Part shown: in pieces, positions 2,562 to 31,216 of the stretch
How positions within the stretch are numbered: position 1 is the first letter of the stretch
How the letters are laid out: each line of letters opens with the position of its first letter
Position numbers and translations under genes: made by a program
NCBI RefSeq assembly: GCF_003234795.2
Contig: NZ_CP126268.1
Location: 558,001 to 622,000 of the forward strand
DNA length: 64,000 bases
Direction: 5' to 3'
Source of the DNA: Curtobacterium sp. MCLR17_032
Lineage (GTDB): Bacteria; Actinomycetota; Actinomycetes; Actinomycetales; Microbacteriaceae
The notes under the pieces: model-generated
Databases searched by the model: none
The model's input: only the letters and a program-made list of their open reading frames with translations
Told to the model about the DNA's origin: nothing

Positions 2562-2605
2562 CGGACGGGAGGCCCGTCACCAGCCCGCCCCGCGCCTCCC
2601 GTCCG
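2562..2605. repeat. Dispersed GGACGGGAGGC palindrome, copy between divergent genes
   Basis: CGGACGGGAGGC (2562-2573) is repeated inverted as GCCTCCCGTCCG (2594-2605), a perfect 12-bp stem with a 20-base spacer. It sits between two divergently transcribed genes, so it cannot be an ordinary 3' terminator. The same core recurs in several intergenic gaps of this window. Confidence 0.7.
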
Positions 2606-6917: not shown

Positions 6918-8948
6918 GTGACCGAGACCCGCGCCTCGTCGCAGTCGTCAGACCACCCCTCGGGTGGGCACGACGCCCAGCCCGGTGACGCCGGCCCAGG
7001 CGACGACGCCACGCACCCCGCGAAGGCCGCGCAGCGCCCCGCCAGCCGGGAGGCCCGTGGGCACCGTGGCAAGGCTGGTCTCGCCCTCGCTGCGCTCGGC
7101 GTCGTGTTCGGCGACATCGGCACCAGCCCGCTCTACTCGATGCGCACGGTGTTCTCCGTCGACGGCGGCATCGTGCGGCCCGTCCCCGAGGACGTCTACG
7201 GCGTCATCTCGCTGCTCTTCTGGTCGATCACCATCGTCGTGTCGATCAAGTACGTCCTGGTGCTCATGCGCGTCGACAACCACGGTGAGGGCGGGGTGAT
7301 GGCGCTCGCCGCACTCGCCCGACGCCTGCACGCCAACCGGCCCGGCGGCACGACGGTGTTCCTGATCATCGGCATCGTCGGCGTCTCGCTGTTCTACGGC
7401 GACTCCGTGATCACCCCGGCAGTGTCGGTGTTGTCTGCCGTCGAGGGCCTGGGCACCGCAGCCCCGTCGGTCGAGCACCTCATCGTGCCGATCGCGGCCG
7501 TGATCCTCATCGGGCTGTTCATCGTGCAGCGCTTCGGCACCGCCAAGGTCGGCGCCTCGTTCGGCCCGGTCATGCTGCTCTGGTTCGTCGTCATCGCGGT
7601 CGCCGGCATCCCGCGCATCGTCGAGCACCCGGGTGTCCTGCAGGGGCTGTCCCCGACCTGGGCGATCGCGTTCCTGTTCGCGCACCCGTTCATCACCTTC
7701 ATCGCGATGGGCGCCGTCGTCCTCGCCATCACCGGAGCCGAGGCGCTGTACGCCGACATGGGCCACTTCGGGCGGATGCCGATCCTCCGCGCCTGGTTCT
7801 TCGTGGTGTTCCCCGCGCTCGTCTGCAACTACCTGGGCCAGGCCGCCCTGGTGCTCGAGGACCCGACCGCCACGAAGGACCCGTTCTTCCTGCTGTTCCC
7901 GAACTGGGCGCAGCTGCCCGTCGTGATCCTGGCCACCGCGGCGACCGTGATCGCCAGCCAGGCCGTCATCTCCGGCGCGTTCTCGCTCACCCGCCAGGCC
8001 GTGCAGCTCGGACTGCTGCCGCCGCTGACCATCCGCCAGACGTCGAAGCGCGAGGGCGGCCAGGTCTACCTGCCGGCCGTCAACCTGCTGCTCTTCATCG
8101 GCGTGATGGCGATCATGCTGGCGTTCCGCTCCTCGGCCGCCCTGGCCACCGCGTACGGCGTCTCGGTCACGGGTGCGCTGGTCGTCGACACCCTGCTGCT
8201 GCTCGTCGTCGTCAAGCCGCTCTGGCGCTGGGCGACCTGGAAGCTCGTCACCGTCGCCGTGGTGTTCGGCGGCCTCGAGCTGACGTTCCTCGCGGGCAAC
8301 CTGTCGAAGGTCCTGCACGGTGGTTGGGTGCCGCTGCTCATCGCCCTGGCCGTGATCACCCTGATGACGACCTGGCACCGCGGTCGGCAGCTCGTGCAGA
8401 TCGAGCGTCGGAAGCGCGAGGGCTCGCTCGCCGAGTTCATCGGAACCGTCAACGCCGACCACATCCCGCGCGTCCCGGGCATCGCGGTGTTCCCGCACCC
8501 GAACAAGGAGACGACGCCGCTGGCACTCCGGGCGAACGTCGAGCACAACGGCGTCGTGCACCAGCGCGTCATCATCGTGTCCGTCCTCACCGCCAACGTG
8601 CCGCACGTGGCGCTGGAAGAGGCCTTCCGCCGCGACGAGCTCGGTTACGACGACGACGGCATCGACCACATCACCATCACGTTCGGGTTCTCCGACGACC
8701 AGGACCTGCCCGCCGCGATGCGTGCCGCGTGCACCGCCGGCCTGATCGACCTGTCCCAGGAGGACATGTCGAAGGCGTCGTACTTCATCTCGCGCGGGGC
8801 ACTCCGGACCGGGGCGGGCAAGGGCGGGATGGTGTCGTGGCGGCGGAAGCTCTTCGTCGCGATGGCGCACAACGCTGCCGACCCGGCCGCGCGGTTCGGG
8901 CTGCCGCTCCGCCGCACGGTGACGATGGGCAGCGACGTCGAGGTCTGA
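6918..8948 (+). CDS. kup: Kup-type potassium uptake transporter
   Basis: 676 residues. After a disordered N-terminus of about 50 residues come FGDIGTSPLYSM, the Kup signature, and about twelve membrane helices (to about residue 490), then a soluble C-terminal domain typical of the KUP/HAK/KT family. ITGAEALYADMGHFG is also a hallmark. It imports K+ together with protons across the cytoplasmic membrane. The start is a GTG with GGAGAG about 9 bases upstream. It appears to be a single-gene transcript; the 3' side holds a palindromic element and a converging gene. Confidence 0.95.
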   Translation: MTETRASSQSSDHPSGGHDAQPGDAGPGDDATHPAKAAQRPASREARGHRGKAGLALAALGVVFGDIGTSPLYSMRTVFSVDGGIVRPVPEDVYGVISLLFWSITIVVSIKYVLVLMRVDNHGEGGVMALAALARRLHANRPGGTTVFLIIGIVGVSLFYGDSVITPAVSVLSAVEGLGTAAPSVEHLIVPIAAVILIGLFIVQRFGTAKVGASFGPVMLLWFVVIAVAGIPRIVEHPGVLQGLSPTWAIAFLFAHPFITFIAMGAVVLAITGAEALYADMGHFGRMPILRAWFFVVFPALVCNYLGQAALVLEDPTATKDPFFLLFPNWAQLPVVILATAATVIASQAVISGAFSLTRQAVQLGLLPPLTIRQTSKREGGQVYLPAVNLLLFIGVMAIMLAFRSSAALATAYGVSVTGALVVDTLLLLVVVKPLWRWATWKLVTVAVVFGGLELTFLAGNLSKVLHGGWVPLLIALAVITLMTTWHRGRQLVQIERRKREGSLAEFIGTVNADHIPRVPGIAVFPHPNKETTPLALRANVEHNGVVHQRVIIVSVLTANVPHVALEEAFRRDELGYDDDGIDHITITFGFSDDQDLPAAMRAACTAGLIDLSQEDMSKASYFISRGALRTGAGKGGMVSWRRKLFVAMAHNAADPAARFGLPLRRTVTMGSDVEV

Positions 8949-8980
8949 CGGGCGGCTGCGCGCCGGCGGCGGCGCGTGCT

Positions 8981-9046
8981 GAGGTTCGCGCTGAGCGACA
9001 CCGTTCGCGTGCCGACGGCCGCGGGTCGTCGCTGAGCGCGAGTCTC
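8981..9046. repeat. GTTCGCGCTGAGCGAC palindrome, copy A
   Basis: Left arm GTTCGCGCTGAGCGAC (8984-8999) and a right arm around 9028-9044 (GTCGCTGAGCGCGAGTC) form an imperfect inverted repeat with about 28 bases between. The arms match those of the copies at 9619 and 10353. It lies between the converging kup and lipoprotein genes and may serve as their terminator. Confidence 0.6.
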
Positions 9047-9056
9047 GCGGCGGCGC

Positions 9057-9488
9057 TCAGGCCGGGAGGCGCTCGGCGGCACCCGGGACGACCAGCTGCC
9101 ACGGGCCTCCACCCCGGACCCGCGTCAGGTACAGGCGGTAGCTGCCCGGCTCGGCCAGCGGGTCGCCGTCGACGTACTCGACGGGCTCGCCGCTCGACGT
9201 GCACTGGTCGGAGGTCGCGATCACGTCGATCCGATCGCCAAGCGTCCGGCCCTTGCACACGTCGGTGATCGCCGCTTCGTGGACGCGGTAGCGGCCGGCC
9301 ACCTCGACCGTTCGGTCCGTCGACCGGACGTCGGCGTCGACGACGAGGGACGCTTCGCGCGTCTGCTCCGCCGGGGTGAGTGAGACGTAGTCCACACACT
9401 GGCCGCTCCTTATCCCAGCGCACCCGGCGAGGCCGCCCCCGAGCATGCACACGATCCCGATCGCCAGCGCGCTCTTCCCCCACCCCAT
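9057..9488 (-). CDS. Predicted small lipoprotein
   Basis: 143 residues. The N-terminus MGWGKSALAIGIVCML ends in a lipobox LAGC, so it should be a membrane-anchored lipoprotein outside the cell. The rest is predicted beta-rich with four more cysteines (for example GQCVDY, DVCKGR, DQCTSS). No family recognised. I prefer the ATG at 9486-9488 over a GTG six codons upstream because it gives a normal signal peptide length. The end overlaps a GGGAGGC motif. Confidence 0.65.
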   Translation of the reverse strand: MGWGKSALAIGIVCMLGGGLAGCAGIRSGQCVDYVSLTPAEQTREASLVVDADVRSTDRTVEVAGRYRVHEAAITDVCKGRTLGDRIDVIATSDQCTSSGEPVEYVDGDPLAEPGSYRLYLTRVRGGGPWQLVVPGAAERLPA

Positions 9489-9618
9489 GCCGTCAGTGTG
9501 CTGCACGCGTCCGGCGCCGTCCAGGTCCGCCGAGCCTCGGCGGGGCGGACGAGGCTCGCGTCCCGGAGCCCGCAGAGTGTCCGTCAGGCCGAGGCCGGGC
9601 CGGGCCGGGCCGGGCCGG

Positions 9619-9678
9619 GTTCGCGCTGGGCGACACGGCTCGCCTGCGGTCGGCCGCGCGGTGTCGCTCAGCGCGAAC
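9619..9678. repeat. GTTCGCGCTGGGCGACAC palindrome, copy B
   Basis: The left arm is 9619-9636 and the right arm GTGTCGCTCAGCGCGAAC is 9661-9678; they are inverted repeats of 18 bases with one mismatch. The 24-base spacer is identical to that of copy C. It lies in the 309-bp gap between divergent genes (9489-9797), so it is not a simple terminator. Just before it are four consecutive GGGCC units (about 9598-9618). I see no gene in this gap. Confidence 0.75.
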
Positions 9679-9797
9679 CTCGGCGTCGCGCGCGCCCGGG
9701 TGCGAGCCGTCCGCGCCCCGGTGATGTCGTAGCCTCAACTGAGCGGGCCGTGAACCGGCGGGACCGCTCCGCGCCGAACAGCCTCCGGAGGACCACG

Positions 9798-10340
9798 ATG
9801 GACCGCCTGCGACGACTGCCGCTGCGGGCACTGCTGCCCATCGTCTTCGTCCTGGTGGGCGCGCTCTACTTCGGCATCGGACTCGCTTCGGACCCGGACG
9901 GGTCGTCGCTCGTGGCGCGGGCCTACAGCGCCCTGGCCTACGCGGTCCTGATGACGATCTTCTTCGGCCTGGTCATCCGGTACCGACGCCGGCGCGCGGG
10001 CGGAGTGGCGAACGCCGCAGCGATCCAGCAGGCGGTGCGCTCGGGGGAGATGCCCGGATCGGTCGACCACGTCGTCTGGGTCCGCGAGCTGGAGTCGACC
10101 CGCAAGCGCTACCGGAACAACCGGGTCCTCGTGCCGGTCATGGCCGTTGTGTTCGCGGCCTTCTCGGTCTGGGCTGCGCTGACCGTCAGCCCGTTCTGGT
10201 GGATCCTGCTGGTGGTGTTCCTGGGCTTCTGCGCGTACTCCGTGTGGGAGACGCGTTGCGCACTGCGGAACATCGACAGCCTGCTCGGCCGACTGCGGGG
10301 GACGTGGCCGGTACCGGGCGACGGCGGGTCCGCGGCCTGA
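9798..10340 (+). CDS. Small integral membrane protein, hypothetical
   Basis: 180 residues with about four hydrophobic segments: two near the N-terminus (about 11-30 and 42-60) and two after a charged cytoplasmic loop (about 112-128 and 132-150). The loop contains RSGEMPGSVDHVVWVRELESTRKRY. The family is unknown to me; the pattern resembles small actinobacterial membrane proteins of unassigned function. ATG at 9798 with GGAGGA about 6 bases upstream. Confidence 0.75.
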   Translation: MDRLRRLPLRALLPIVFVLVGALYFGIGLASDPDGSSLVARAYSALAYAVLMTIFFGLVIRYRRRRAGGVANAAAIQQAVRSGEMPGSVDHVVWVRELESTRKRYRNNRVLVPVMAVVFAAFSVWAALTVSPFWWILLVVFLGFCAYSVWETRCALRNIDSLLGRLRGTWPVPGDGGSAA

Positions 10341-10352
10341 GGCCGGGCCGAC

Positions 10353-10412
10353 GTTCGCGCTGGGCGACATGGCTCGCCTGCGGTCGGCCGCGCGGTGTCG
10401 CTCAGCGCGAAC
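10353..10412. repeat. GTTCGCGCTGGGCGACAT palindrome, copy C
   Basis: Arms 10353-10370 and 10395-10412, spacer 10371-10394. The 60 bp differ from copy B at one position only (the final base of the left arm). Here it lies between two converging genes (ends at 10340 and 10447). Confidence 0.75.
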
Positions 10413-10446
10413 CTCGTGCCTCGTGCCTCGCGCCGCGCCGCAGGAC

Positions 10447-10797
10447 CTACCGGCGGAGACGCGCCAGCTCGCCCCGGTAGCCGCTCAGCTGCCGGACGAG
10501 CCCCTCGCTGGCCCGCGAGCCGCTGAGGTCCCCGAGCAGCCGGTCGACCCGCCGCAGCACCGCCTGCTGGTCCGACCGCGAGAGCCCCCGGAAGCGGTCG
10601 GCGTCCGGCAGCTGTCCCGGCCAGCCGTCGTCGTCCGACGTGGCGACCGTGGTCTGCACGACGGTCGACGTGGTCGCGGGGCGTCCGACGTCCGACGAGG
10701 CGTCCGGGCCCCCGATGGTCGCCGCCGCGGCGCCCGTCCCCGCGATGGCCAGGATGAGCGCCAGGGTGGCCAGGCTGACAGCGGTCTTCTTCTGCAT
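10447..10797 (-). CDS. Predicted exported protein, 116 aa
   Basis: The N-terminus MQKKTAVSLATLALILAIAGTGAAAA is a Sec-type signal peptide. A Thr/Ser/Asp-rich linker follows, then a C-terminal helical region with SDQQAVLRRVDRLLGDLSG and QLSGYRGELARLRR. No known domain. It is divergent from the second kinase gene at 11026. In the 228-bp gap, 10821-10885 is a low-complexity run of GCTGCGG-like units, and 10936-10947 carries the GCCTCCCGTCC motif. Confidence 0.65.
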   Translation of the reverse strand: MQKKTAVSLATLALILAIAGTGAAAATIGGPDASSDVGRPATTSTVVQTTVATSDDDGWPGQLPDADRFRGLSRSDQQAVLRRVDRLLGDLSGSRASEGLVRQLSGYRGELARLRR

Positions 10798-11025
10798 CAC
10801 GTGCTCCGTTCGACGGCCGCGGGCTGCGGCGCTGCTGCGGGCTGCAGCGCTGCCGCGGACTGCGGCAGACCGCTCACTGCGGCAGGACCAGCTTCTGACG
10901 AGGCGGGCGTCAGGCGCATCGGCGGAAGGTGGTGGGCCTCCCGTCCGTTCGACTGATCGTCCGGACGCGCGCGCTCCGTCGTTCGGGGGAGGCGCGGAGT
11001 CGCCTCGGGCGGCTAGCCTCACGCC

Positions 11026-12435
11026 ATGCGTCCAGTCTCGATCCCGCCGTGGGTGCGCGCTGCCGTGGCCGGGGTCGTGTTCCTCGCCCTCGCGCTCCTG
11101 ACGATGGAAGGGCTGCACCGCGCCGGCTGGTACCCGACGAGCCTCGACGACTACCGGGTCACCGCGGCCCTGGTCGCGCTCTGCATCGGCGTCGGCCAGC
11201 GGCTGCCGTACCCGCTGCTCGTGGTGGTCGCGATCGTCGTCGGCTGGCCGCTGTGGACGTTCGGCGTGCTGACCGTGCGCCTCATCCCGCTCGTGATCGC
11301 CGTCTACCTGGCGTGTGCGGCCGGACGACGGGTGCTCGCCGTGCTGGCGGTCGTCACCCTGCCGACCCTGTCCGCGCTGTTCCTGCCCCTCGCGTTCGCG
11401 CCAGTGGAGTCCTGGGTGCTCGCCGTCCACCGGTGGCCGCTCGCACTGCTGCTCGGCAAGTCGCTCCTGGCCATCGCCGACTGGTCGACGATCGTCCTGA
11501 TGGGGATCCTGCTCGTGGCGTCCGCCGTCCTCGGCCGCGCCACCGCCCGTCGCCGTCGGTCCGAGCTCGTGCTGCAGCGGCGCAACGAGGAACTCGTCCG
11601 CCTGCGCGAGTCCGACCAGGCCCGCATCGCTTCCGAGGAACGCACCGCCGTCGCCCGCGAGGTCCACGACGTCGTCGCCCACCACATGGCCGCCATCGTC
11701 GTCCGCTCCCAGGCGCTGGTCCGGGTCGGGGTCGCGGACCAGGCCGAGTTCGCCGAGTACGCCTCGTGGGTCGCGGGCACCGGGCAGCAGGCGCTGTCCG
11801 AGATGCGGAAGGTCGTCCGGGTCCTCCGTGCGGGCGGGGACGGCGGCACGACCGACGCCCCGGTGTCGCTCCGGGGCGCCCTCGAGGCCGCCGTCGACCG
11901 CGTCCGCGCCACCGGTGTGCGGGTCGACACCGACCTGCGCGTGCCCGGGAGCCTGGGCGTGATGCAGGACTTCGCCGTCCTCCGCGTCTGCCAGGAGGCG
12001 CTGACCAACACCCTCGTGCACTCCGACGGCTCCTCGGTGCGGATCAGTCTGGCCGCGTCCGAGGACCGCATCCGCCTCGAGGTCCTCGACGACGGCGGCT
12101 CCGGCGGCAGCCCCCGGGTGCCGGAACTCGCCGTCGGTGGCGCCGGGATCCGCGGGATGCGGGAGCGCGCCGCGTCGATCGGCGGGGTCCTGGACGCCGG
12201 GCCGGCCGCGGGTGGCGGATGGCGCGTCACGCTCGAGGCACCCCGGGAGGCGCGTGTGCCGACGGCGGGCAGCGTCCGGCCCGGTGCGGGGCCGGGTGGT
12301 GCGGGGCCGGGTGGCGCTGCCGGTCGGGCGGCTGCCGGTGCTGCGGGTCCCGTCGGCGTGGCTGGGCTGGCTGCCGCCGCTCCTGCCGCTTCGGCTCCGG
12401 CCGGCGCTGCCGCTCCCCGGGTGGTCGCGTCGTGA
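11026..12435 (+). CDS. NarL/DesK-type sensor histidine kinase
   Basis: 469 residues. About four or five membrane helices occupy residues 8-175. The phosphoacceptor helix has VAREVHDVVAHHMAA with His about residue 214. The ATPase domain has CQEALTNTLVHS (N box), VLDDGGSGG (G1) and GGAGIRGMRERAASIGG (G2). The C-terminal 70 residues are an Ala/Gly/Pro-rich low-complexity tail. Its stop overlaps the GTG of the response regulator by 4 bp. The pair is independent of the one at 4714-6812 but of the same class. Confidence 0.9.
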   Translation: MRPVSIPPWVRAAVAGVVFLALALLTMEGLHRAGWYPTSLDDYRVTAALVALCIGVGQRLPYPLLVVVAIVVGWPLWTFGVLTVRLIPLVIAVYLACAAGRRVLAVLAVVTLPTLSALFLPLAFAPVESWVLAVHRWPLALLLGKSLLAIADWSTIVLMGILLVASAVLGRATARRRRSELVLQRRNEELVRLRESDQARIASEERTAVAREVHDVVAHHMAAIVVRSQALVRVGVADQAEFAEYASWVAGTGQQALSEMRKVVRVLRAGGDGGTTDAPVSLRGALEAAVDRVRATGVRVDTDLRVPGSLGVMQDFAVLRVCQEALTNTLVHSDGSSVRISLAASEDRIRLEVLDDGGSGGSPRVPELAVGGAGIRGMRERAASIGGVLDAGPAAGGGWRVTLEAPREARVPTAGSVRPGAGPGGAGPGGAAGRAAAGAAGPVGVAGLAAAAPAASAPAGAAAPRVVAS

Positions 12436-13139
12436 TCCGCGTGGTGATCGTCGACGACCAGGCCGTGGTGCGCACCGGCCTCGGCATGATGGTCGACGCC
12501 GAACCCGACCTGACCGTCGTCGGGCAGGCGCCGAACGGAGCCGAGGCGATCGCCGTCTGCGCCGACCTCCGCCCTGACGTGGTGCTCATGGACGTCCGGA
12601 TGCCCGTGCTCGACGGCATCTCGGCCACCCGCTCGATCGTGTCCGACGGCACCGCGGGCGCAGTGGTCATCCTCACCACGTTCGACGACGAGGAGTACCT
12701 GCTCGACGCCGTCCAGGCCGGCGCACTCGGGTTCCTGCTCAAGGACGCGGGCCCGGACCTCATCGCCGCCGGGGTCCGTGCGGCACACACCGGCGACACC
12801 CTCATCGCACCGTCGATGACCCGGGCGCTGCTCGAGAACCGGCTGCTCGGTGCCCGGTCCGGTGGCGCGGGCGGTGGCGCTGCGGGGTCGACCGCGCCCG
12901 CTCCGCCTGCCGAGCACGCCCCCGCGCTGGCGTCGCTGAGCGCCCGCGAGCGGGAGGTCCTCACCGCCCTGGTCCGCGGCGCCAGCAATGCGCAGATCGC
13001 GAAGGACCTCTGGATCAGCGAGGCCACCGTGAAGACCCACATCAGCAGCGTGCTCGGCAAGGTCGGGGCCGCGAGCCGGGTGCAGGCCGTCGTCTTCGCG
13101 TACGAGAGCGGCTTCGTCCGGCCGGACTGGTCCGCGTAG
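12432..13139 (+). CDS. LuxR/NarL-family response regulator
   Basis: 235 residues. Receiver domain: VVIVDDQAVVRTG, phosphoacceptor Asp about residue 54 in VLMDVRMPV, TTFDDEEY and FLLKDA. After an Ala/Gly/Pro linker comes the DNA-binding domain with LSAREREVLTALVRGASNAQIA and ATVKTHISSVLGKVG. Partner of the kinase immediately upstream. Confidence 0.92.
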   Translation: MIRVVIVDDQAVVRTGLGMMVDAEPDLTVVGQAPNGAEAIAVCADLRPDVVLMDVRMPVLDGISATRSIVSDGTAGAVVILTTFDDEEYLLDAVQAGALGFLLKDAGPDLIAAGVRAAHTGDTLIAPSMTRALLENRLLGARSGGAGGGAAGSTAPAPPAEHAPALASLSAREREVLTALVRGASNAQIAKDLWISEATVKTHISSVLGKVGAASRVQAVVFAYESGFVRPDWSA

Positions 13140-13148
13140 TCCCGCGGG

Positions 13149-13800
13149 CCGGCGAGGTCCGCGCTTGGCGACAGCGCTCGCGCTGCTCGCCGCGTGCGGT
13201 GTCGCTGGGGCCGAGCCCCGGCCTGGCGGACGGTTTGCGCCTGCCGGACGACGCAAGTTGTCCGCGTGGCCGAGTCTCGGGCGGGAGGCGCGGGGCGGGG
13301 CCGGGACGGGCCTCCCGGCCGGCGTGGTTCGCGCTGGGCGACAGGGCTCGCGCTGCTCGCCGCGTGCGGTGTCGCTGGGGGCGAGCCTCGGCCTGGCGGA
13401 CGGTTTGCGCCTGCCGGCGGCCGCAGGGTGTCCGCGTGGCCGAGTCTCGGGCGGGAGGCGCGTGGCGGGGCTGGGACGGGCCTCCCGGCCGGCGAGGTTC
13501 GCGGTGAGCGACAGCGCTCGCGCTGCTCGCTGCGTGCGGTGTCGCTGGGGGCGAGCCTCGGCCTGGCGGACAGTCTGCGCCCTGCCGGACGACGCAAGTT
13601 GTCCGCGTGGCCGAGCCTCGGGCGGGAGGCGCGTGGCGGGGCTGGGACGGGCCTCCCGGCCGGCGAGGTTCGCGATGGGCGACAGCGCTCGCGCTGCTCG
13701 CTGCGTGCGGTGTCGCTGGGGCCGAGCCTCGGCTAGGCGGGCAGTTCGCGCCTGCCAGGCGGCGCAAGTTGTCCGCACAGGCGAGCCTCGGCGCCCGCCC
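13149..13800. repeat. Tandem array of a 170-bp unit, four copies
   Basis: Units begin at about 13158, 13328, 13498 and 13669 (spacing 170, 170, 171); the last is shortened. Each starts with a version of the GTTCGCGCTGGGCGACA palindrome, continues with GGCGGACGGTTTGCGCC and GCAAGTTGTCCGCGTGG, and ends with a GGGAGGC...GCCTCCCGG inverted pair. The array fills the 689-bp gap between two converging genes. Frames through it are open by chance, but the 170/171-bp period breaks the reading phase, so I do not consider it coding. Confidence 0.85.
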
Positions 13801-13828
13801 GCCCGCGAGCGGCGCGGCCCAGCGCCCC

Positions 13829-15127
13829 TCAGGCGGCGCGGGAGCGGGACAGCGGCGCGGCCGCGACCTCGGTCGGCTCGGCGGACGCAGCCTCGCGGCG
13901 GATCGCGATGACCGTCACGTCGTCGTCGTGCGGCACCTCGGCCGCCCGCTCGGCCAGGGCCGCGACGATCGCCGCCGGCGTCCGGTCGGCGCGCGCCAGC
14001 TCGGCGACCGAGTCCACCGCGTCGTCGCGTCCGCCGAACAGGTCGAGCACGCCGTCGCTGAACGAGATGAGCAGGTCGCCCGGCTCGAGGGTGCCGATGG
14101 TGGTCGCCCACTCGTCGCGGAGGCCCATCCCCAGCGGCAGGTCGACCGAGCGCAGGCGCTCCACCCCTCCGGCAGCACGGAGGATGAAGCTCAGCCCGTG
14201 CCCGGCGTCGGCCCACTGCAGCCCGCCGTCGTCGTCGATGCGGGCGTGGAACAACGTGGTGAAGGTGACGTCGGTGCCGGCACCCTCGGCAGCGAGCCCG
14301 TCGGAGGCGCGGCGCAGGGCCTCGGACGCGTCGTCGACCGTCCGGGCGCTGCGGATCGTGGCACGCACGGCGGCGGCGATGAGTCCGGCGCCGACGCCCT
14401 TGCCCATCACGTCGCCCAGTCCGACGGCGATGCCGTTCTCGGTGCGGTACCAGTCGAAGAAGTCGCCGCCGACGCTCTTCGCCGGCATGCAGGTGCCGGC
14501 GACGGTGACGCTCTCGCCCAGGCCGTCGCTCGAGGTGGGCAGCAGGGAGCGCTGCACGGCGGCGGCGCGCTCGATCTCGGCGCGGACGCGGACCTCGCGG
14601 TCCTCGGCGGAGCGGACGGAACGGCGGGCGCGGCGGGAGAGCTCGTGAACGATGACGGCGACCGTGCCGAACACGACGACGGTGATGCCGAGGCGCACCA
14701 GCTCACTGGCGCGGATCACGGAGCCCGGCTGCAGCAGGTACGGCGCCAGGATCACGATCGTGACGCCGAGGATCGAGTACAGGATCGTGCGTCGGCCGTC
14801 GAGCGACGCCCACCACACCACCGGCAGGACCACGAGCGAGGTGAACACGGACGCGCCGGCACCGGTGCCCGTCCGGAACAGGGCAAGGGACACGAAGTCG
14901 ACGGCCAGCAGGATCGGCACGAGCGGGACCGCGCGCGGGAAGTGTGCGGCGAACGCGGCGAGCAGGGTCGCGACGCCGACGGAGACCAGGCTGGCGAGGA
15001 ACATCGTCAGGTCGCTGATCTCGAGCGTCGGCAGCGTCACGGTCAGCAGCGCGCCGAGGGCCAGCAGGCCGCTGATCGGAGCCTGCCGGACGAGGGGGTT
15101 GTCGATGACGCTGGTTGGGCGAGACAT
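13829..15127 (-). CDS. Membrane SpoIIE/RsbU-type serine phosphatase (PP2C)
   Basis: 432 residues. About six or seven membrane helices (about 15-165) are followed by a short coiled coil (SAEDREVRVRAEIERAAAVQRSLLP) and a SpoIIE phosphatase domain (about 200-415). Metal-binding motifs are visible: SVGGDFFDWY, GLGDVMGKGVGAGLIA, ISFSDGVLD and DDDVTVIAI. Such enzymes dephosphorylate anti-sigma-factor antagonists in partner-switching stress circuits; the partner is not in the window. ATG at 15125-15127. Confidence 0.9.
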   Translation of the reverse strand: MSRPTSVIDNPLVRQAPISGLLALGALLTVTLPTLEISDLTMFLASLVSVGVATLLAAFAAHFPRAVPLVPILLAVDFVSLALFRTGTGAGASVFTSLVVLPVVWWASLDGRRTILYSILGVTIVILAPYLLQPGSVIRASELVRLGITVVVFGTVAVIVHELSRRARRSVRSAEDREVRVRAEIERAAAVQRSLLPTSSDGLGESVTVAGTCMPAKSVGGDFFDWYRTENGIAVGLGDVMGKGVGAGLIAAAVRATIRSARTVDDASEALRRASDGLAAEGAGTDVTFTTLFHARIDDDGGLQWADAGHGLSFILRAAGGVERLRSVDLPLGMGLRDEWATTIGTLEPGDLLISFSDGVLDLFGGRDDAVDSVAELARADRTPAAIVAALAERAAEVPHDDDVTVIAIRREAASAEPTEVAAAPLSRSRAA

Positions 15128-24044: not shown

Positions 24045-24103
24045 TGATTGAAGCCGGACCGGTGTGCGCGATGGTCTCCGACAGTGATGAGGCCAGCCAG
24101 TGA
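24044..24103 (+). CDS. 19-codon linker ORF between priming transferase and next glycosyltransferase
   Basis: ATG at 24044-24046 shares a base with the upstream stop (TGATG), and the stop TGA 24101-24103 overlaps the GTG start of the next gene (GTGA). The predicted peptide begins MIEAGPV and ends DEASQ. The arrangement would let ribosomes pass from gene to gene without release, so this may be a coupling cistron rather than a functional peptide. No homologue known to me. Confidence 0.3.
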   Translation: MIEAGPVCAMVSDSDEASQ

Positions 24104-24930
24104 CGCGTCCCTTGAAGTCGGTCAGATGGCACATCGTCACCGTCTCCTACAACAGCGCACGAGACCTCGGCGACCACTGGGCAACCGTCGCCCTCCCGGA
24201 CGGGGTCCGCTGGACAGTCGTGGACAACGCTTCGAACGACGATTCAGTCGAGATCGCCCGCAACCTCGGTGCGACGGTGATACCGCTGGAGCGGAACATC
24301 GGATTCGGTGCGGCGAACAATGTCGGGGCGCGCAGTGTCGAAGCCGAGTACATCGTGTTCGCTAACCCGGATGTCTTGGTGGACACATCGACCCTGTCAT
24401 CGTTCGAGACGACGTTTTCCACAGGGGATGACCTCGTCCTCGCCCCGCAGCTGCTCAATCCGGACGGATCCGCTCAGCCGTCCGGGCGAAGCTTCCCGAC
24501 ACTCGCTTCAAAGCTCAAGAATCGGCTTCCTGACGCAGCAAGGCGGGACTACCAGATCACGGCTCGCGAAGGTGAACAACGGTACGTCTCGTGGTTCATC
24601 GGGGCTGCCGTTGTAATGACCATGAAGACCTACCGGCTGCTTCCGTGGGACGAACGCTTCTTCGTCTACTACGAGGATTCGGACCTCGGGCTCCGGGCAT
24701 GGAAATCAGGCCATCGGGTGGTTCTCGACGGATCCATTCGATGGATCCATGCGTGGGCCCGCGAGACTGCCGGCTTCAACCCTCGGGCCTGGAAGCTGGA
24801 GATCGCGAGCATGGCGAAGTTCTACTCGCGATACCCGCATCTCTTGCTCCCGAACAGGATCGCAGCATTGTTTCACCCCGAGCGTCGTTACGTTGGCCGT
24901 CTCGTCGGCGACGTCGAGGTCGGCCGATGA
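24100..24930 (+). CDS. Family 2 glycosyltransferase (rhamnosyltransferase-like)
   Basis: 276 residues. GT-A core: WHIVTVSYNSARDLG, VVDNASNDDS, RNIGFGAANNVGA and VFANPDVLVD (the DxD-equivalent). Further down are WFIGAAVVM and DERFFVYYEDSDLGLRAWKSGH. It should add one sugar to the lipid-linked repeat unit at the cytoplasmic face. GTG start at 24100, 4-bp overlap with a 19-codon ORF; the 3' end overlaps the next gene by ATGA. Base composition is visibly lower in GC than the genes upstream. Confidence 0.88.
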   Translation: MTRPLKSVRWHIVTVSYNSARDLGDHWATVALPDGVRWTVVDNASNDDSVEIARNLGATVIPLERNIGFGAANNVGARSVEAEYIVFANPDVLVDTSTLSSFETTFSTGDDLVLAPQLLNPDGSAQPSGRSFPTLASKLKNRLPDAARRDYQITAREGEQRYVSWFIGAAVVMTMKTYRLLPWDERFFVYYEDSDLGLRAWKSGHRVVLDGSIRWIHAWARETAGFNPRAWKLEIASMAKFYSRYPHLLLPNRIAALFHPERRYVGRLVGDVEVGR

Positions 24931-25823
24931 GCGGGTACCCAAGACCGCGGCTCACGATTGTGTCTGTCCTTTTTGGCGGTGCCGACACACTTCGAGAGAC
25001 GCTTCCCACGTGGCGCGAGTCCCTGACTGCGGACGTCGAGGTCGTGTTCGTCGACCACAGCGCGCGGGCCCTCGATGTCGATCTCGGTCTCGCCCGCTGG
25101 GCTCGCTACGAATGGAACCCTGAGAACCCCGGGTTTGCCGCTGGTGTAAACCGCGCTGTTCACTTGGCCAGGTCCGACCGGGTGTTCTTACTCAATCCGG
25201 ACGTCTTTCTCACCGAGGAAGCGCTCCGCGCGGTGGTCGAGGAGCAAAGCGATGGCTTGCTTGCCGTGGCCCTCCGTACTGACGGTCAGGTCCACGTTGG
25301 CATCGAGTACTCGTGGTGGGGCTTCTGCCGAGATCGTACGAATCTCGATCGACATCTGGTCGGTCCGAGCGGTGGGGCAGCAGTCTTCCCGAGCGATCTC
25401 GTCCTGCGCAGTCACCCGTTCCCTGACCATCTCTTCGCCTGGGGGGAGGACGCCGAGTGGGGACTAGGACTGTGCGCGAGCGGCATCATCACGCGAGAGC
25501 TGAAAGGCGTGGTGCTCGAACACGTAGGTGGTCACTCAGTCGACAACCCGCGCGGTCAGCAGCTCAAAGCAAGGCTGCTCGTCCGGAACCGCATCGCGAC
25601 GTTTCGGCGGGTCCTCGGGCTTCGTACCAAGCTGTCCATCGGCGCACCCTTCTTCGCCGCGATCGTTGTCAACCTGGCGCGGAAAGTGATGCAGGGGACC
25701 GCTCGGGCATACATTCGAGGAGTTCTCGAGGGCCTGCGGCTTCCGTTGCCACCATTGGACGGCCCGAAGCTCAGTTGGGCGCAGTGGAAGCGTTTCACGG
25801 CTGATGGCGGTGAGCGAGGATGA
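24927..25823 (+). CDS. Family 2 glycosyltransferase
   Basis: 298 residues. Core motifs: TIVSVLFGGADTL, VVFVDHSAR, NPENPGFAAGVNRAVH, VFLLNPDVFL and FAWGEDAEWGLGLCASG. It is of the same subfamily as the gene before it but clearly distinct. Acceptor and sugar unknown. Start ATG at 24927 overlaps the preceding stop (ATGA), and its own stop overlaps the flippase start in the same way. Confidence 0.85.
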   Translation: MSGYPRPRLTIVSVLFGGADTLRETLPTWRESLTADVEVVFVDHSARALDVDLGLARWARYEWNPENPGFAAGVNRAVHLARSDRVFLLNPDVFLTEEALRAVVEEQSDGLLAVALRTDGQVHVGIEYSWWGFCRDRTNLDRHLVGPSGGAAVFPSDLVLRSHPFPDHLFAWGEDAEWGLGLCASGIITRELKGVVLEHVGGHSVDNPRGQQLKARLLVRNRIATFRRVLGLRTKLSIGAPFFAAIVVNLARKVMQGTARAYIRGVLEGLRLPLPPLDGPKLSWAQWKRFTADGGERG

Positions 25824-27064
25824 GTAATCGCGACACGTCGCTAGCGGAGTCCGCGCCCGTTCGTCGGGGGCCGGTGAGCCGTCAGGTCGTGATCCTCATC
25901 GGATCACGGGGTCTGGCCGCCGTGCTCCAATCGGTCTCTTTCATGCTGCTGAGCAGGGCCGTGGATCTGCGGACGTTCGGCGTGATCGGTGTCGTCACGG
26001 CCATTGCGGGCTTTGCGTTGCTCGTCAGCGACCTCGGAGTGACCGCCACCCTCTCGCGAGCACGGGCCCGTCAAGACCACGCGCTGGTTCGTGGAGCGCT
26101 GCAGCTCAACGACGTCGTCACGGTGGTCAGCGCCGTACTGTTCGGCGTTGCAGCTGGTTTCGCGGCTGCACCCGGCGTTGCACTTGCGATCTTGGCGGTC
26201 TCGCTGACCGTCGAGCGCAACGTCGAGACGCACCTCAGCGTCTTCTACGCGGACGGTTCGCGCTTCGTTCCCGCGGTGTCGATCCTCGGTCGCCGCTTGC
26301 TCATGCTGGCCGTATTCTGGGGTTCGCTCCAAGCATCCGTGGACGGCGCACTCGCATTTGCGATCGCGCAACTTGCCGGGGCGACGTTCAGCCAGGTGCT
26401 GCAGCGCATCACGCTTGCCCCATTGTCGCGAACCGCATCTCCGCTCGGCCTGGGCACGGTGTTCAGAGGATCGTGGCGGTTCTGGGCGAGCTCAGTACTC
26501 AACCAAGTTCGTATCCTCGACTCCGCCATCGTCGGCGCCTTCGCTTCGGTTGCCAGCGCGGGCCTGTACGCAGCAGCCCAAAAGCTGGTGAACCCGTTGC
26601 TCCTGTTGCCCGCATCACTCTCTCAGGTCATCTTGCCTGCGGTGGCTCGGGATCGCAGCAACGTCCGGCGGATCACGAAGCGAGTCTGTGGCCTGTTCCT
26701 CGGCACATACGTCGTGATCGTCCCTGTCACGTTCTTCGCACGCGGTCTCCTCGATCTTCTCTTCGGTAGTCCCTACGGAGACGGCGCATCGATCCTCGTC
26801 TGGGCAATGCTGGGCTTCCCGATGCTTGCGCTCTCTGGCCCTCTTGCAGCAATCCTCCAAGGGCTTGGCGACGAGGGGTTCGTGGCGCTCAACGGCGCGC
26901 TCTTCGCGGTCGTAGCACTCATCGCGATGGTCGGGGGCGCCATCATGTTCGGCCCCACCGGTGTAGCCGCCGGGATGACGATCGCCTACACGCTCCGTAC
27001 GCCGGTCCTCGTCGTCCGGATCTTCCGGTCCGATCTTCGCCGTTCAGAAAGCGTTCAGCCGTGA
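25820..27064 (+). CDS. Polysaccharide flippase (Wzx-type, MOP superfamily)
   Basis: 414 residues, about twelve hydrophobic segments spread over the whole length. N-terminal GPVSRQVVILIGSRGLAAVLQSV and SFMLLSRAVDLRTFGVIGVV match the start of oligosaccharide flippases. It should move lipid-linked repeat units from the inner to the outer leaflet. The position among glycosyltransferases, with the polymerase downstream, fits a Wzx/Wzy pathway. ATGA overlap at the start; the stop overlaps the next GTG start. Confidence 0.88.
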   Translation: MSNRDTSLAESAPVRRGPVSRQVVILIGSRGLAAVLQSVSFMLLSRAVDLRTFGVIGVVTAIAGFALLVSDLGVTATLSRARARQDHALVRGALQLNDVVTVVSAVLFGVAAGFAAAPGVALAILAVSLTVERNVETHLSVFYADGSRFVPAVSILGRRLLMLAVFWGSLQASVDGALAFAIAQLAGATFSQVLQRITLAPLSRTASPLGLGTVFRGSWRFWASSVLNQVRILDSAIVGAFASVASAGLYAAAQKLVNPLLLLPASLSQVILPAVARDRSNVRRITKRVCGLFLGTYVVIVPVTFFARGLLDLLFGSPYGDGASILVWAMLGFPMLALSGPLAAILQGLGDEGFVALNGALFAVVALIAMVGGAIMFGPTGVAAGMTIAYTLRTPVLVVRIFRSDLRRSESVQP

Positions 27065-27939
27065 TGGAGAGAAGCGTCGAGAGCGGCAAGCCTGTCACTG
27101 GTCCTCAAAGGGCAGGCATCTCCCTGGCAGTTGTTGTCGTCCGTTACAAAAAAGCCATTCGCGACATGCCCGTTGTGCAGTATGCCGCAGCGCTTGAGTC
27201 GGACACGAAGATCAGGTGGATCATCGTGGACAACTCGCCGGCCGAGGCAACGATGGATGACAGGGCGGGTCTTCCCGCCAACTCGCGGTACATGTGGCTC
27301 GGCGCGAACCGCGGGCTGCCCAAGGCCTACAACGCTGCACTCACGCATCTCGACGAGTCGACGACCCACATCTGTTTCCTCGACCAGGACACCAAGGCGG
27401 TCGGGACGTACCTACAAGCCATTCTCGACCGAGGTGATTGCGGCAGCGACATCGTCCTGCCTGTCGTGGTGTCCGGGGCCGTTATCCTTTCTCCCTGCAG
27501 GAGAACTGGCCCCTGGTACAGACCTGTCAGATGGCGGGGTGCGATCCCTGGCCCAATGAGCTGGATCAACAGCGGCATGGTCGTCAGCGCCAAGGTGTTC
27601 GCCTCCACGCGATTCGACGAGCGGTTGTTCCTCGACTACGTCGATCATCGGTTCGCGCTCGACGCTCAGCGTGCCGGTGCTTCTGTGGACGTCCGGTGGG
27701 ACCTGGCGCTCGAGCAGGACTACTCCCGTGAGACTGATGACGTCGATGCTGCTTACCGTCGGTACTTGATCTTTCGTGATGACTTGCGAACGTTCTATGG
27801 TCCGGGCGTCTCCGGGCGTCTTTGGGCGATGGGGCTCACGCTTCGCCGCGCACTGGTGGCTACGAAGAAGTACCGGACAAGGCGGTTCCTCGCCGCTTGG
27901 ACCTCAGGAAGGCGGACGGCGGATGCCGCGGAGCGGTAA
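27061..27939 (+). CDS. Family 2 glycosyltransferase (rhamnosyltransferase-like)
   Basis: 292 residues. Motifs: LAVVVVRYKKAI, IIVDNSP, ANRGLPKAYNAAL, CFLDQDTKAV and WINSGMVVSAKVF, then DERLFLDYVDHRFALDAQRAG. LDQDT and DYVDHRF are typical of rhamnosyltransferase-type GT2 enzymes. Start is GTG 27061 (4-bp overlap) or ATG 27064; I cannot decide between them. The end overlaps the next gene by 17 bp. Confidence 0.85.
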   Translation: MMERSVESGKPVTGPQRAGISLAVVVVRYKKAIRDMPVVQYAAALESDTKIRWIIVDNSPAEATMDDRAGLPANSRYMWLGANRGLPKAYNAALTHLDESTTHICFLDQDTKAVGTYLQAILDRGDCGSDIVLPVVVSGAVILSPCRRTGPWYRPVRWRGAIPGPMSWINSGMVVSAKVFASTRFDERLFLDYVDHRFALDAQRAGASVDVRWDLALEQDYSRETDDVDAAYRRYLIFRDDLRTFYGPGVSGRLWAMGLTLRRALVATKKYRTRRFLAAWTSGRRTADAAER

Positions 27940-28594
27940 GAGTGCGTTGTGGAAGACGAGTAGACGCCTTCTCCACCACATGAGATTGGAATCGCACCGA
28001 TTCCGCTGGTACGGATCGAACCGGCACAACGAGACCTTCGCTGTGAATCAGTTCCGACGCGACCACGTCGAGGTCGGGAACTTCACCTACGGGCCGCTCA
28101 GAGTCATCGACGGTGCTGCTTCGAGCAGACTGCGCATTGGCTCCTTCTGCTCCATCGCTGAGGACGTCACGTTCGTGCTCAACGGGGACCACCCTCTCGA
28201 CCGGCTTTCGACATTTCCGTTGCGCGCCTTCGTCCTCGGGGAGCAGGAGACTGTGCAGTCTCGCGGAGACATCGTCCTCGGAGACGACGTCTGGATTGGA
28301 CACGGCGCTGTGATTCTCTCTGGCGTGACACTGGGTCGCGGAAGCGTCATCGCAGCAGGATCGATCGTGACACGTGACGTCGCGGACTATGCGATCGTCG
28401 CCGGCAGTCCTGCGCGTGTAGTCCGTTCTCGATTCGGAGCGGACGTCCTCGAAGCTGTACGGAAGGTGGACATGAGTCGCCTGAACGAGCCCTTCATCCG
28501 TCGGAACCTCGAGATGCTCGAGGCATCTGTCGATGCGGCGTCGGTCGACGAGATCCTTCGTGCTCTCGGTTCAGGGATGGGTGGAACGACATGA
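27923..28594 (+). CDS. Hexapeptide-repeat acetyltransferase (CatB/NodL-like)
   Basis: 223 residues. The left-handed beta-helix is seen as FTYGPLRVIDG, LRIGSFCSIAEDVTFVLNGDHPLDRLSTFP, GDIVLGDDVWIGHGAVILSGVTLGRGSVIAAGSIVTRDV and AIVAGSPARVVRSRF. NGDHPLDRLSTFP is typical of xenobiotic/sugar O-acetyltransferases of this fold; the histidine of GDHP is the likely catalytic base. It probably acetylates a sugar of the repeat unit. ATG at 27923 within the end of the previous gene. The stop overlaps the next ATG by 4 bp. Confidence 0.85.
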   Translation: MPRSGKSALWKTSRRLLHHMRLESHRFRWYGSNRHNETFAVNQFRRDHVEVGNFTYGPLRVIDGAASSRLRIGSFCSIAEDVTFVLNGDHPLDRLSTFPLRAFVLGEQETVQSRGDIVLGDDVWIGHGAVILSGVTLGRGSVIAAGSIVTRDVADYAIVAGSPARVVRSRFGADVLEAVRKVDMSRLNEPFIRRNLEMLEASVDAASVDEILRALGSGMGGTT

Positions 28595-29835
28595 GGGTGA
28601 TCTCGAACTTCCACTTCTGGTACGCCATCACATGGACGATGTGCCTGATCGCGTACAGCTGGGAATGGTCCGAACTGAACCAGCCACTGCGGCCGGATCT
28701 TCTGACGTTCTTCTGGCTGTCCATCGTGATGTCAACGCTCATCCTGGTCGTGCAGCTGGGGCGAGGGGCCGCGAACGACGACCGAGACGTCGTGCTCAGG
28801 TCCGCACGTGAGGGCAAGCGCGACGGGCGCAGTGTCACGGTGATGTTCGTCATCGGGTTCGCCCTCGACTTTGCCTACCAGGGGGCGATCCCGTTCTTTC
28901 GCGGGGGCTACACCGGGTTTGACATCACAGCACAGATCCAGTCAACGGTTGGAATTCCTGTTCTCCACGTCGTCCTGATCGGCGGAGCAATCTTCTTTGC
29001 CCTAGAGCGTTCCGACCGTTTTTTCGTGCAGAGGTCTCGCTCTTACGCCCTCCAGTTCGTCGTCATCCAGATACTGCTTCTGCTCAACAACAGTCGCGGA
29101 TACATCACCTTTTGCGTAATCGGTGCACTATTGTTGTTCGCGCTACGGAAATTCTCGGACGAGGGCAGGATGCGTCCTCAGATCCTCGTTTTGGCAGCGA
29201 TCGGTGGCGTTGTGGTCTTGTTCGGTATCGGAGTGTTCGGGAACATCCGCTCTGGTTCATCCTGGTGGGATTCGAGCCACATTTCGCACTTGGGTCGATA
29301 TCAAGATAGGTACCCAGGCTGGTTGAGCGAGCAGTTCCAGTGGGCCTATACGTACTTCACGAGCCCACTCGCCAACCTCAATCTTAACCTTTCGGTGAGG
29401 CCGGTTGATGGCTCATTGACTCAAGTATGGCTGGCGTTCTTGCCCGACACCTTCGGTAAGTACTTCGTGGCTGAACGGGTCAATGTTGTGTATCTGGTCT
29501 CGTACCTGAATGCGTCGACCGGCTATGTCGTGCCGTACTACCTCGGTGGCGGAGTGCCCGCACTGTATGTCTTCTACATCCTGCAAGTGGTGTTGCTCGA
29601 ACTGGGGGCGTTCCTTGCGCGAAAGATCGGCACCGCCGTTGCGCTGTTTCAAGTTTGTGCGTCAGTCATCGTCATCGTCTTCGTCTTCTACAACTCCTTC
29701 TCCGACGCCGCAACCTGTTTTCTGATCCCGCTAGCTCTAGCTGTCGGACTGGTAAGACGGCGCCGGGTCGAGAAGAAAACTGCCGGTGGTCAACAGGTCG
29801 GCCGTGCTGGGGCATCGCCTCTACGTCGAGCGTGA
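28591..29835 (+). CDS. Putative polysaccharide polymerase (Wzy-type)
   Basis: 414 residues with about ten or eleven membrane helices. It has the typical large outside loop in the second half (about 210-300: SGSSWWDSSHISHLGRYQDRYP, then LSEQFQWAYTYFTSPLANL). LLLNNSRGYITF and the loop are similar in kind to O-antigen polymerases, which are poorly conserved; the call rests on topology and on the gene's place beside a flippase. It would join repeat units outside the membrane. Noticeably lower GC and more A/T-ending codons than neighbours outside the cluster. Confidence 0.7.
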   Translation: MRVISNFHFWYAITWTMCLIAYSWEWSELNQPLRPDLLTFFWLSIVMSTLILVVQLGRGAANDDRDVVLRSAREGKRDGRSVTVMFVIGFALDFAYQGAIPFFRGGYTGFDITAQIQSTVGIPVLHVVLIGGAIFFALERSDRFFVQRSRSYALQFVVIQILLLLNNSRGYITFCVIGALLLFALRKFSDEGRMRPQILVLAAIGGVVVLFGIGVFGNIRSGSSWWDSSHISHLGRYQDRYPGWLSEQFQWAYTYFTSPLANLNLNLSVRPVDGSLTQVWLAFLPDTFGKYFVAERVNVVYLVSYLNASTGYVVPYYLGGGVPALYVFYILQVVLLELGAFLARKIGTAVALFQVCASVIVIVFVFYNSFSDAATCFLIPLALAVGLVRRRRVEKKTAGGQQVGRAGASPLRRA

Positions 29836-29887
29836 CCTGGGCTCGTCTCGCTATCCGATTACTTGAGTAGATGGGCCCGGTAAGTCA

Positions 29888-30919
29888 TTGGAACAGTCAG
29901 TCCCTCGTTTGAGCGTAGTCATCCCAGCGTTCCAATCAGCACATGTCATCCTCGATGCAGTGACGAGCGTGCTCGACCAGGCAGTAGCCGGTGTCGAGGT
30001 CGTCGTCATCGATGACGGAGGTGCGGATGACATCGTCGGAGCCTTGGCATCGCTGGCTTCAGATGAGCGCCTCAGGCTCATACATCAGGATCGCGCTGGA
30101 GTGTCCGTGGCTCGGAACCTGGGAGTGCGCGAGTCGCGCGGAGCGTTCCTGATGTTCGTCGATGCGGATGACCGCCTCACGCCGGGCTCCCTGGGTGGGT
30201 TCCTGGAGTTCGCGATCGAATCGAGGTCGGACGTCGTGATCTCAGACTTCTTCCTCACCCGGGGTGCAGAAGGCGAACTGGTGAAAGCCGTCAACTCCGA
30301 TCTCACGAGTTTCAATACATCCGATCGCGCGGTCCTGCAGTGGCTGACGCTCGCTCGGGTGGGGTTCCAGAACAAGCCGAACGTCGGGCTCCTGGGTGCG
30401 CCGTGGTCGAAGATATACTCGCGGACCTTCCTCGAAGAGCGATTCAGCCGCGAGAACCTCTTCCTCCCTGGGCTAACACGGGGTCAAGACGTGTTGTTCA
30501 ACACCGAAGTCTTCGGCGAAGCCAGTCGAATCGGTTACTGGCCATTCGCGACGTACTCCTACTCGGTCTCAAGCGACTCGTCGTCGCATCGGCCAGCGCA
30601 TGACTTCGCGGACAAGATCGCTCTGCTCGAGGCAAGTCTGCTGCAACTCATCTCGTCGAAGGGGTGGGGTCATCTCCGCCCTGCTGTGGCGAAGATGGTC
30701 GTCACCTTGTTCGAAGAGTCGCTGCTGCGGATCGGGAGCGGACTCTCACCCGCGAAGGTCCGCGACTTGCGCTCGCGACCGCCTGTCCGAGCGGCTCTGA
30801 AGAGCGCGCGTCTTAGAGACTTCAGTCTTGCGGGCAGGGTGAAGCTGGTGGCCTTCCGCGTTGGTCCACGCTGCACCGCATTGCTGATGCGCGCATTGCG
30901 CCGGATATCTCGGCGGTGA
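29888..30919 (+). CDS. Family 2 glycosyltransferase
   Basis: 343 residues. The GT-A domain (about 8-110) has PRLSVVIPAFQSAHVI, VVVIDDGGADD, HQDRAGVSVARNLGVRESRG and MFVDADDR with the DxD. The C-terminal part is helical and may bind the acceptor or membrane (RVKLVAFRVGPRCTALLMRAL). Start is TTG at 29888, the only plausible start near the conserved N-terminus; this is a weak, unusual start. It is separated from the polymerase by 52 bp, the largest gap within the cluster, and closes it. Confidence 0.83.
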   Translation: MEQSVPRLSVVIPAFQSAHVILDAVTSVLDQAVAGVEVVVIDDGGADDIVGALASLASDERLRLIHQDRAGVSVARNLGVRESRGAFLMFVDADDRLTPGSLGGFLEFAIESRSDVVISDFFLTRGAEGELVKAVNSDLTSFNTSDRAVLQWLTLARVGFQNKPNVGLLGAPWSKIYSRTFLEERFSRENLFLPGLTRGQDVLFNTEVFGEASRIGYWPFATYSYSVSSDSSSHRPAHDFADKIALLEASLLQLISSKGWGHLRPAVAKMVVTLFEESLLRIGSGLSPAKVRDLRSRPPVRAALKSARLRDFSLAGRVKLVAFRVGPRCTALLMRALRRISRR

Positions 30920-31080: not shown

Positions 31081-31216
31081 CTGCGCTCAACGCACCTGCC
31101 GGCACGGAGACGGGTATATCGCGCTTGGCGGCAAGCGCGATCGGATACTTCGAAGCCGAGAACGGCAATCTGCGTGGTCGGCTTGTCGCGACGTGGCACA
31201 ACCCTAGGATTACCTC

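Follow-up and report, generated by a model that had tools for sequence, protein, structure and literature searches.

BIMEs are mosaics of extragenic palindromes that lie in clusters, and sometimes in regular tandem, between or after genes; they bind gyrase, IHF or PolI, and BIME-2 of E. coli is their tandem type. Hairpins that lack a T tract exist at the 3′ ends of actinobacterial genes.

REPINs are moved by RAYT transposases, and CGTC-tagged REPs form a class without a dedicated transposase, as set out in the excerpts of PMC3733652 used here, in which different REPs are also described near the same recB site in two Xanthomonas species. Excerpts of PMC3686654 describe orthologous RAYT genes that have REPs of different classes next to them, and excerpts of PMC8049555 were also used for the comparison with known systems. 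Here we compare with these systems a tandem array of palindromic elements in Curtobacterium sp. MCLR17_032, located in a stretch of 64,000 nucleotides (the window; contig NZ_CP126268.1) on which an earlier note had been made from the letters alone.

Structure of the tandem array

The array occupies 13147..13791 of the window (+ strand) and runs A-B-C, A-B-C, A-B-C, A-B, unit 4 being without C, as delimited by TRF, a repeat search and the profile models R1, R2 and R3 for elements B, A and C, respectively. TRF reported a period of 170 over 13147-13776 (3.7 copies, 91% matches, score 1041), and an ungapped repeat search placed the unit starts at 13158, 13328, 13498 and 13669, with spacings of 170, 170 and 171 bp. 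Units 1 and 3 were 92% identical to unit 2 over 170-171 bp (E 1.7e-68 and 7e-67), and unit 4 matched unit 2 at 86% identity over its first 134 bp only. When the region was compared with itself, identity at lag 170 was 0.68, against a mean of 0.34 for lags 20-349. TRF, the repeat search and the unit-to-unit alignments agree with the earlier note on the four units and on their periods, and the array does lie between two converging genes. The upstream gene (12432..13139, + strand; start placed by a home-made gene finder) encodes a response regulator with a LuxR/GerE domain (Pfam PF00072, PF00196), and the converging gene (13829..15127, - strand) encodes a SpoIIE-type phosphatase (PF07228) whose nearest named matches are from Curtobacterium, C. 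salicis WW7 standing at 91% amino-acid identity.

Element A is an inverted repeat of ~64 bp with inner arms GCGACA, found at 13158..13221 (R2 69.6 bits), 13328..13391 (79.3 bits), 13498..13561 (73.4 bits) and 13669..13732 (73.2 bits). Element B is an inverted repeat of ~69 bp with inner arms GCGGACA and ends CGAGNCTCG, located at 13211..13279 (R1 82.4 bits), 13381..13449, 13551..13620 and 13722..13790 (79.1 bits each). Both follow a common design, in which an outer arm leads over a short mismatch to an inner arm and a centre, after which the order is reversed, with dyad symmetry and nearly invariant inner arms. Element C, a GGGAGGC...GCCTCCC hairpin of ~40 bp, is present at 13282..13321 (R3 52.2 bits), 13452..13491 and 13623..13662 (55.5 bits each); all these copies lie on the + strand. 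In each unit A runs into B with an overlap of 11 bp, and at the junction a single GCGAGNCTCGG-like motif serves as the right end of the one and the left end of the other. Among 34 neighbouring A/B pairs less than 60 bp apart in four genomes, nine overlapped by 9-11 bp with one terminal motif in common; six of the nine came from this array and its counterpart in the relative G019, and the remaining three were B-B pairs. Over 204 kb of the MCLR17_032 genome, all five copies of CCGAGNCTCGG coincided with A/B elements (1.9 expected). The bare 9-mer CGAGNCTCG was not enriched in the same 204 kb (20 seen versus 24 expected), and 12 of its 20 copies were located at A/B.

This dissection refines the unit described previously. 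The sequence GTTCGCGCTGGGCGACA at the unit start is no palindrome by itself: it forms the left arm of the larger inverted repeat A, and it differs from unit to unit; the GGGAGGC/GCCTCCC pair closes units 1 to 3 but is missing from unit 4; and the unit is a composite as proposed, but of three elements instead of two, B having not been separated from its neighbours A and C.

Folding was assessed on the copies of unit 2. A predicted hairpin is well supported for B (-46.6 kcal/mol, z -3.96) and weakly for the array's C (z -1.58), the A and C copies folding little above shuffled sequences (A, z -0.77, no better than shuffles). Relatives such as C. pusillum carry C as a perfect 36 bp palindrome (-39.2 kcal/mol, z -7.8). 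Base pairing was preserved with compensatory changes in A (10 cells, a level reached by none of 500 shuffles) and weakly so in B (3 cells, reached by 12 of 500). A search for a hairpin followed by a T tract gave no terminator in 12900-14100, no promoter-like site was detected in the same interval, and Rfam gave no match up to E 0.1 in 8800-14100. The repeat is not of the CRISPR kind, the entire 170 bp unit being repeated and unique spacers being absent. Long overlapping open reading frames run across the array, and translations change frame from unit to unit; since 170 is not divisible by 3, no frame is kept across the units, as the earlier note had stated.

Distribution of the elements and search for a mobiliser

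Profile models placed 30 B, 28 A and at least 95 C in the MCLR17_032 genome, the figure for C being a minimum, since each of the 150 candidates scored was a match. The unit is thus built of elements that also occur singly elsewhere, as had been claimed. Two places that fitted both the A and the B model were assigned to B in this count and were included under both in the tally of contexts below. The models were built from relatives retrieved with the array as query, and the counts therefore lean to the array's lineage. Single elements within the window comprise A at 8985..9048 (R2) and 10354..10417 (R2 76 bits), both in convergent spacers, B at 9530..9598 (R1 58.3 bits) beside A at 9620..9683 (R2 76.7 bits), all on the + strand, and C at 2562..2601 on the - strand (R3 58.8 bits). 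With genes called by the home-made finder, 29 of 30 A, 30 of 30 B and 53 of 56 C (those examined of the 95) were extragenic. The 3′ end of a gene was nearer than a 5′ end for 25 of 29 A, 25 of 30 B and 48 of 53 C, where a rough estimate from 31 window spacers of 60-1500 bp would predict 15 in 31; the binomial tails (3e-5, 8e-5 and 9e-11, respectively) overstate this bias because the array copies are not independent. C lay at a median of 29 bp from the gene 3′ end. Genes beside A/B elements were of varied function.

Mosaics and arrays were also present elsewhere. MCLR17_032 carries further mosaics at 2732908-2733613 and 3266478-3266981; arrays of B with a 59 bp period occur in two genomes of other species, G033 and G047, and an A+C array with a 131 bp period in G003 (loci L003 and L005 were left out of the survey of element places as overlapping). 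In G033, a 14-bp tandem repeat of 9 copies (L093:1383-1508, unit CGCCGCGCCGAGTC) directly adjoins the 59-bp-period B array and looks like slippage of half a motif.

In a sample of 120 genomes of the family, to which stricter filters were applied and for which figures come from the genomes listed, B was found in three. These three belong to the window's genus, and the 84 other genera sampled gave no B. A was found in five of the 120, namely the three with B and, weakly, one genome in each of two other genera; these weak occurrences consist of three A-like places in G160 (genus g21; including L402) and a single marginal one in g68. In the window's genus, B was present in 37 of 40 genomes, with 0 to 110 strand-matches per genome, each palindrome usually being counted twice. 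G019 had 40 B places, and the close relative MCPF17_052 had no detectable B, 14 A, and C. In G018 (L099) three A lie within 3 kb, yet the genome has one B strand-match, so that the numbers of A and B seem to vary independently. Apart from the elements, the codon-usage gene finder called no gene in window 24045-31375, where the GC content is 56-65% as compared with a window mean of 70.5%, which suggests an acquired or unusual region.

The REP-associated transposase that the earlier note had proposed to look for was not found: Y1_Tnp (PF01797, the RAYT family) was not detected in any of 60 genus genomes, MCLR17_032 included, and the control was positive in 5 of 14 named genomes. No transposase appeared among the 25 listed of the 128 Pfam families in 64 genes flanking A/B. 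At 2489174 and 2490262 of MCLR17_032, inverted A elements flank one gene; this arrangement could be an autonomous copy, and the gene product looks unlike a transposase. Of the features of MITEs, A and B have the inverted-repeat ends, and no parent transposon appeared among the listed flanking-gene families. No target-site duplication could be read at A/B sites, whose flanks are GC-rich simple sequence.

Orthologous sites in four species

We compared MCLR17_032 (G000) with G019, C. salicis (G060) and MCPF17_052 (G061). The spacer that holds the array measures 689 bp with four units in MCLR17_032 and 1667 bp in G019. In C. salicis it has 130 bp and a single A, and in MCPF17_052 it is 20 bp long and empty. 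The G019 spacer holds what we read as vestiges of four units, arranged as in MCLR17_032 and broken by a stretch of ~1.1 kb. The variability of the locus foreseen in the earlier note is therefore real, the orthologous spacer holding nothing, one A or four units, and the array is a locus that varies between species. The G019 insert (L089:369-1507; 61% GC over 377-1435) contains a 323-aa gene with a sub-threshold match to DUF4190 only (Pfam), and an A-like palindrome lies just past this gene (1435-1487); the gene is possibly cargo captured by recombination between elements.

Array copies of A were 92.7% identical within MCLR17_032 and 95.8% within G019, as against 80-81% between the genomes, and copies at the same position were no closer (79.7%) than those at different positions (81.1%). 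Because A copies are more alike within than between genomes and show no positional likeness, the A of the array was amplified or homogenised separately in each lineage. For B of the array, identity was 84.5% within MCLR17_032, 94.2% within G019 and 82-84% between them. At a second shared array (2732908 of MCLR17_032), A copies were 88.3% and 86.5% identical within MCLR17_032 and G019, respectively, and 85-87% between them, and B copies 92.8% and 91.8% within and 88-89% between. On these identities, lineage-wise homogenisation is clear for A of the array, weak for B (evident in G019, hardly so in MCLR17_032) and not general, the second array giving no sign of it for A and a slight one for B.

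Matching of the A/B places of the four genomes through their flanking sequence gave 45 site groups: 3 common to all four genomes, 16 to three, 13 to two, and 13 confined to a single genome. The one-genome groups are overcounted, the G019 array, G019 1126241 and G019 3193922 being among orthologous sites left unjoined; two clusters of MCPF17_052 without flank were left unmatched. Of 21 B loci in G019, 18 fitted A/B sites of MCLR17_032 by both flanks, one by one flank and two by none. MCLR17_032 and G019 had 22 groups in common, 17 with the same type, 4 switched and 1 partial, and in all six groups common to MCLR17_032 and MCPF17_052 the type was the same. At 909546 and 2699958, MCLR17_032 shares A with MCPF17_052, and the two remaining genomes, G019 and C. 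salicis, both have B. In the spacers at 2489174 and 2490262, MCLR17_032 and MCPF17_052 have A, G019 has B, and C. salicis has one B in the group; at 2490262 an apparent single B end (GCCGAGGCTCGGC) is seen in C. salicis (L382), the rest being absent, and is perhaps a remnant after deletion. Likewise, MCLR17_032 has A at 3269586 and at window 8985, versus B in G019 and C. salicis, and the MCPF17_052 orthologue of the 8985 spacer is an element-free 10 bp.

Alignments showed conserved flanks around the exchanged sites. In comparisons confined to single-element clusters, orthologous pairs of the same type had a mean identity of 88.7% (39 pairs), as compared with 68.0% for random A pairs and 70.6% for random B pairs (40 each), values that are if anything too high since orthologues were kept among the random pairs. 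Elements of different type at one site were 51.7% identical (10 pairs), hardly above random A-B pairs (48.6%, 40 draws). Gradual mutation of A into B is rejected on this comparison; as orthologous pairs of different type resemble random A-B pairs, the whole core was replaced, not mutated.

The surroundings of the elements vary as well. At 1134824 of MCLR17_032, B lies within GC-rich simple sequence in three species, MCPF17_052 is without that sequence, and the four genomes alike keep a hairpin next to the stop codon. GC-rich simple repeats of very unequal lengths flank A/B in the G019 orthologue of window 8949-9056 and in the 1134824 orthologues, and they are missing where the element is missing (1134824, MCPF17_052).

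Over 22.5 kb of flanks, informative sites joined G000 with G019 at 290 positions, with G061 at 176 and with G060 at 152; these flank windows partly overlap (2489174 with 2490262; the array with the 8985 spacer), and two listed sites gave no four-way window. A recount without overlapping windows gave 252, 152 and 121, and sites outside the array region 123, 97 and 69, in the same order of groupings. This sequence comparison gives only moderate support to a grouping of G000+G019 versus G060+G061. By their A/B alleles, the genomes fall into G000+G061 and G019+G060, which is not the grouping favoured by the flanks. The flanks of 2699958 favour G000+G019 (38 versus 14 and 17) and its alleles do not, and the closest left window of 2489174 favours the allele split by 13 to 5. 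Within 0-1000 bp to the right of 1134824, G000+G061 outweighs the flank-favoured grouping in informative sites (26 versus 6), which may be a trace of recombination between species. A history with just one exchange, on one branch, would require the less favoured species grouping; the history of exchange may instead have involved loss of a partner from an A-B composite, short-tract transfer between species, or repeated exchange.

Element C followed another course. It was found in the orthologous G019 interval at 14 of 17 C places in 204 kb of MCLR17_032, and in the orthologous C. salicis interval at 9 of 13 testable places, 3 of those 9 over intervals of more than 2 kb. All three C copies of the array are missing in C. 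salicis, and two of the three in G019. Because its positions are mostly kept between species, C mostly behaves as an inherited 3′-end hairpin.

Origin of the array and its place among known systems

The array is probably a REPIN/BIME-like mosaic of Curtobacterium extragenic palindromic elements without RAYT, tandemly amplified in a convergent spacer. Amplification as a block is supported by the data, and so is the proposal of the earlier note that amplification was followed by drift, the units differing from each other at scattered sites. In the course of events that we envisage, the spacer would have gained A, and B would have been added beside it with a terminal GCGAGNCTCGG motif common to both; C may already have been adjacent or may have arrived next to A-B. 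The block of ~170 bp would then have multiplied through unequal recombination or slippage, with partial re-homogenisation of the units within each lineage. Between converging genes, such a block could serve as a bidirectional hairpin barrier for 3′-end processing, termination or insulation, and A and B may have spread by means of some enzyme, not RAYT, that acts in trans or has since been lost.

Exchange at orthologous sites lends itself to a different, tentative reading, which is possible if doubtful: A and B would be alternative cassettes at inherited docking sites, the whole core, bounded by terminal GCGAGNCTCGG motifs, being swapped independently of RAYT, and arrays would grow by adding cassettes with a motif in common. 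The overlaps agree with it in size, A and B having 11 bp in common here and the B-B period of 59 bp in two other species being 69 minus 10; were it true, species would differ in which type fills the same sites. It is unlikely that A and B are non-autonomous elements of the MITE or REPIN kind, whose transposase belongs to another family or has been lost, and that the array arose by repeated adjacent insertion. The inverted-repeat ends of both families, the very unequal number of B (none in MCPF17_052 versus 40 places in G019) and the presence or absence of elements at orthologous spacers speak for such mobility, and to that extent for the mobile palindrome of the earlier note, but no transposition was seen. 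Moreover, Y1_Tnp, the only transposase family searched genome-wide, was not found in the genus, the listed flanking-gene families contain no transposase, and the constant order of units with a 170-171 bp period suits block duplication better than separate insertions. The opposite view, that the elements are immobile, selected 3′-end hairpins copied by slippage or recombination and kept alike by conversion among copies, accounts for the strong 3′-end bias, for the orthology of C in G019 and C. salicis and for the A/B site groups occupied in several genomes; it suits C well but A and B less, given that MCPF17_052 is without detectable B, that orthologous spacers of 10-20 bp hold no element and that entire A/B cores are exchanged, and we regard it as unlikely.

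Dyad symmetry, nearly invariant GCGACA/GCGGACA arms and tandem multiplication would also befit a candidate platform for a DNA-binding protein (gyrase, some nucleoid protein, or a regulator acting on the adjacent signalling genes), its copies being selected for avidity; for BIMEs and REPs, binding of several proteins is reported in excerpts of PMC2817692. This explanation is improbable, as the elements adjoin genes of varied function and the same gene pair has none or one element in relatives. Finally, tandem repeats are prone to error in assembly and long overlapping reading frames cross the region, but an assembly artefact or a hidden coding sequence can hardly be the answer: the units differ at scattered sites and an orthologous array exists in a separately assembled relative, while the period does not divide by 3, the frames shift, and in two relatives the sequence is largely or wholly missing. 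Neither of the two findings that the earlier note had named as refuting it was made; with orthologous spacers of merely 20 and 130 bp in two relatives, no conserved protein extends across the stretch.

Returning to the mosaic that we favour, we found no published description of these elements, nor of apt Curtobacterium or Microbacteriaceae repeats, in the open-access literature, outside which most subscription journals lie; 'actinobact' has no occurrence in the main text of PMC3733652. A genus with REPIN-like elements in tens of copies, unequal between species and exchanged at fixed sites, and with Y1_Tnp not found in 60 genomes, makes testable how palindromic repeats without a transposase spread and why the same spacers are refilled.

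Like BIMEs, and especially the tandem BIME-2 of E. coli, the array and the mosaics at 2732908-2733613 and 3266478-3266981 combine mixed palindromic motifs in extragenic clusters. They differ from BIMEs in being composed of inverted repeats of ~64-69 bp and a 40 bp hairpin, in a genus of which 60 genomes yielded no RAYT-family gene, and no likeness to enterobacterial REPs is evident in the A, B and C consensus, judged from the consensus alone. With REPINs, A and B share two inverted palindromic arms about a short central spacer, an extragenic location and tens of copies in lineage-specific numbers; they differ in that no Y1_Tnp was found and that one family can take the place of the other at fixed sites. 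By eye, the A and B consensus end in neither a GTAG nor a CGTC tag, and on account of this and of the RAYT result the elements are not filed as members of a RAYT system. The CGTC REPs, which excerpts of PMC3733652 present as a palindromic class without dedicated transposase, are similar in that respect and differ in sequence and length. As to actinobacterial 3′-end hairpins, C resembles them in being a GC-rich hairpin close to the gene 3′ end, and differs from them in being a genus-wide sequence family, not a structure alone.
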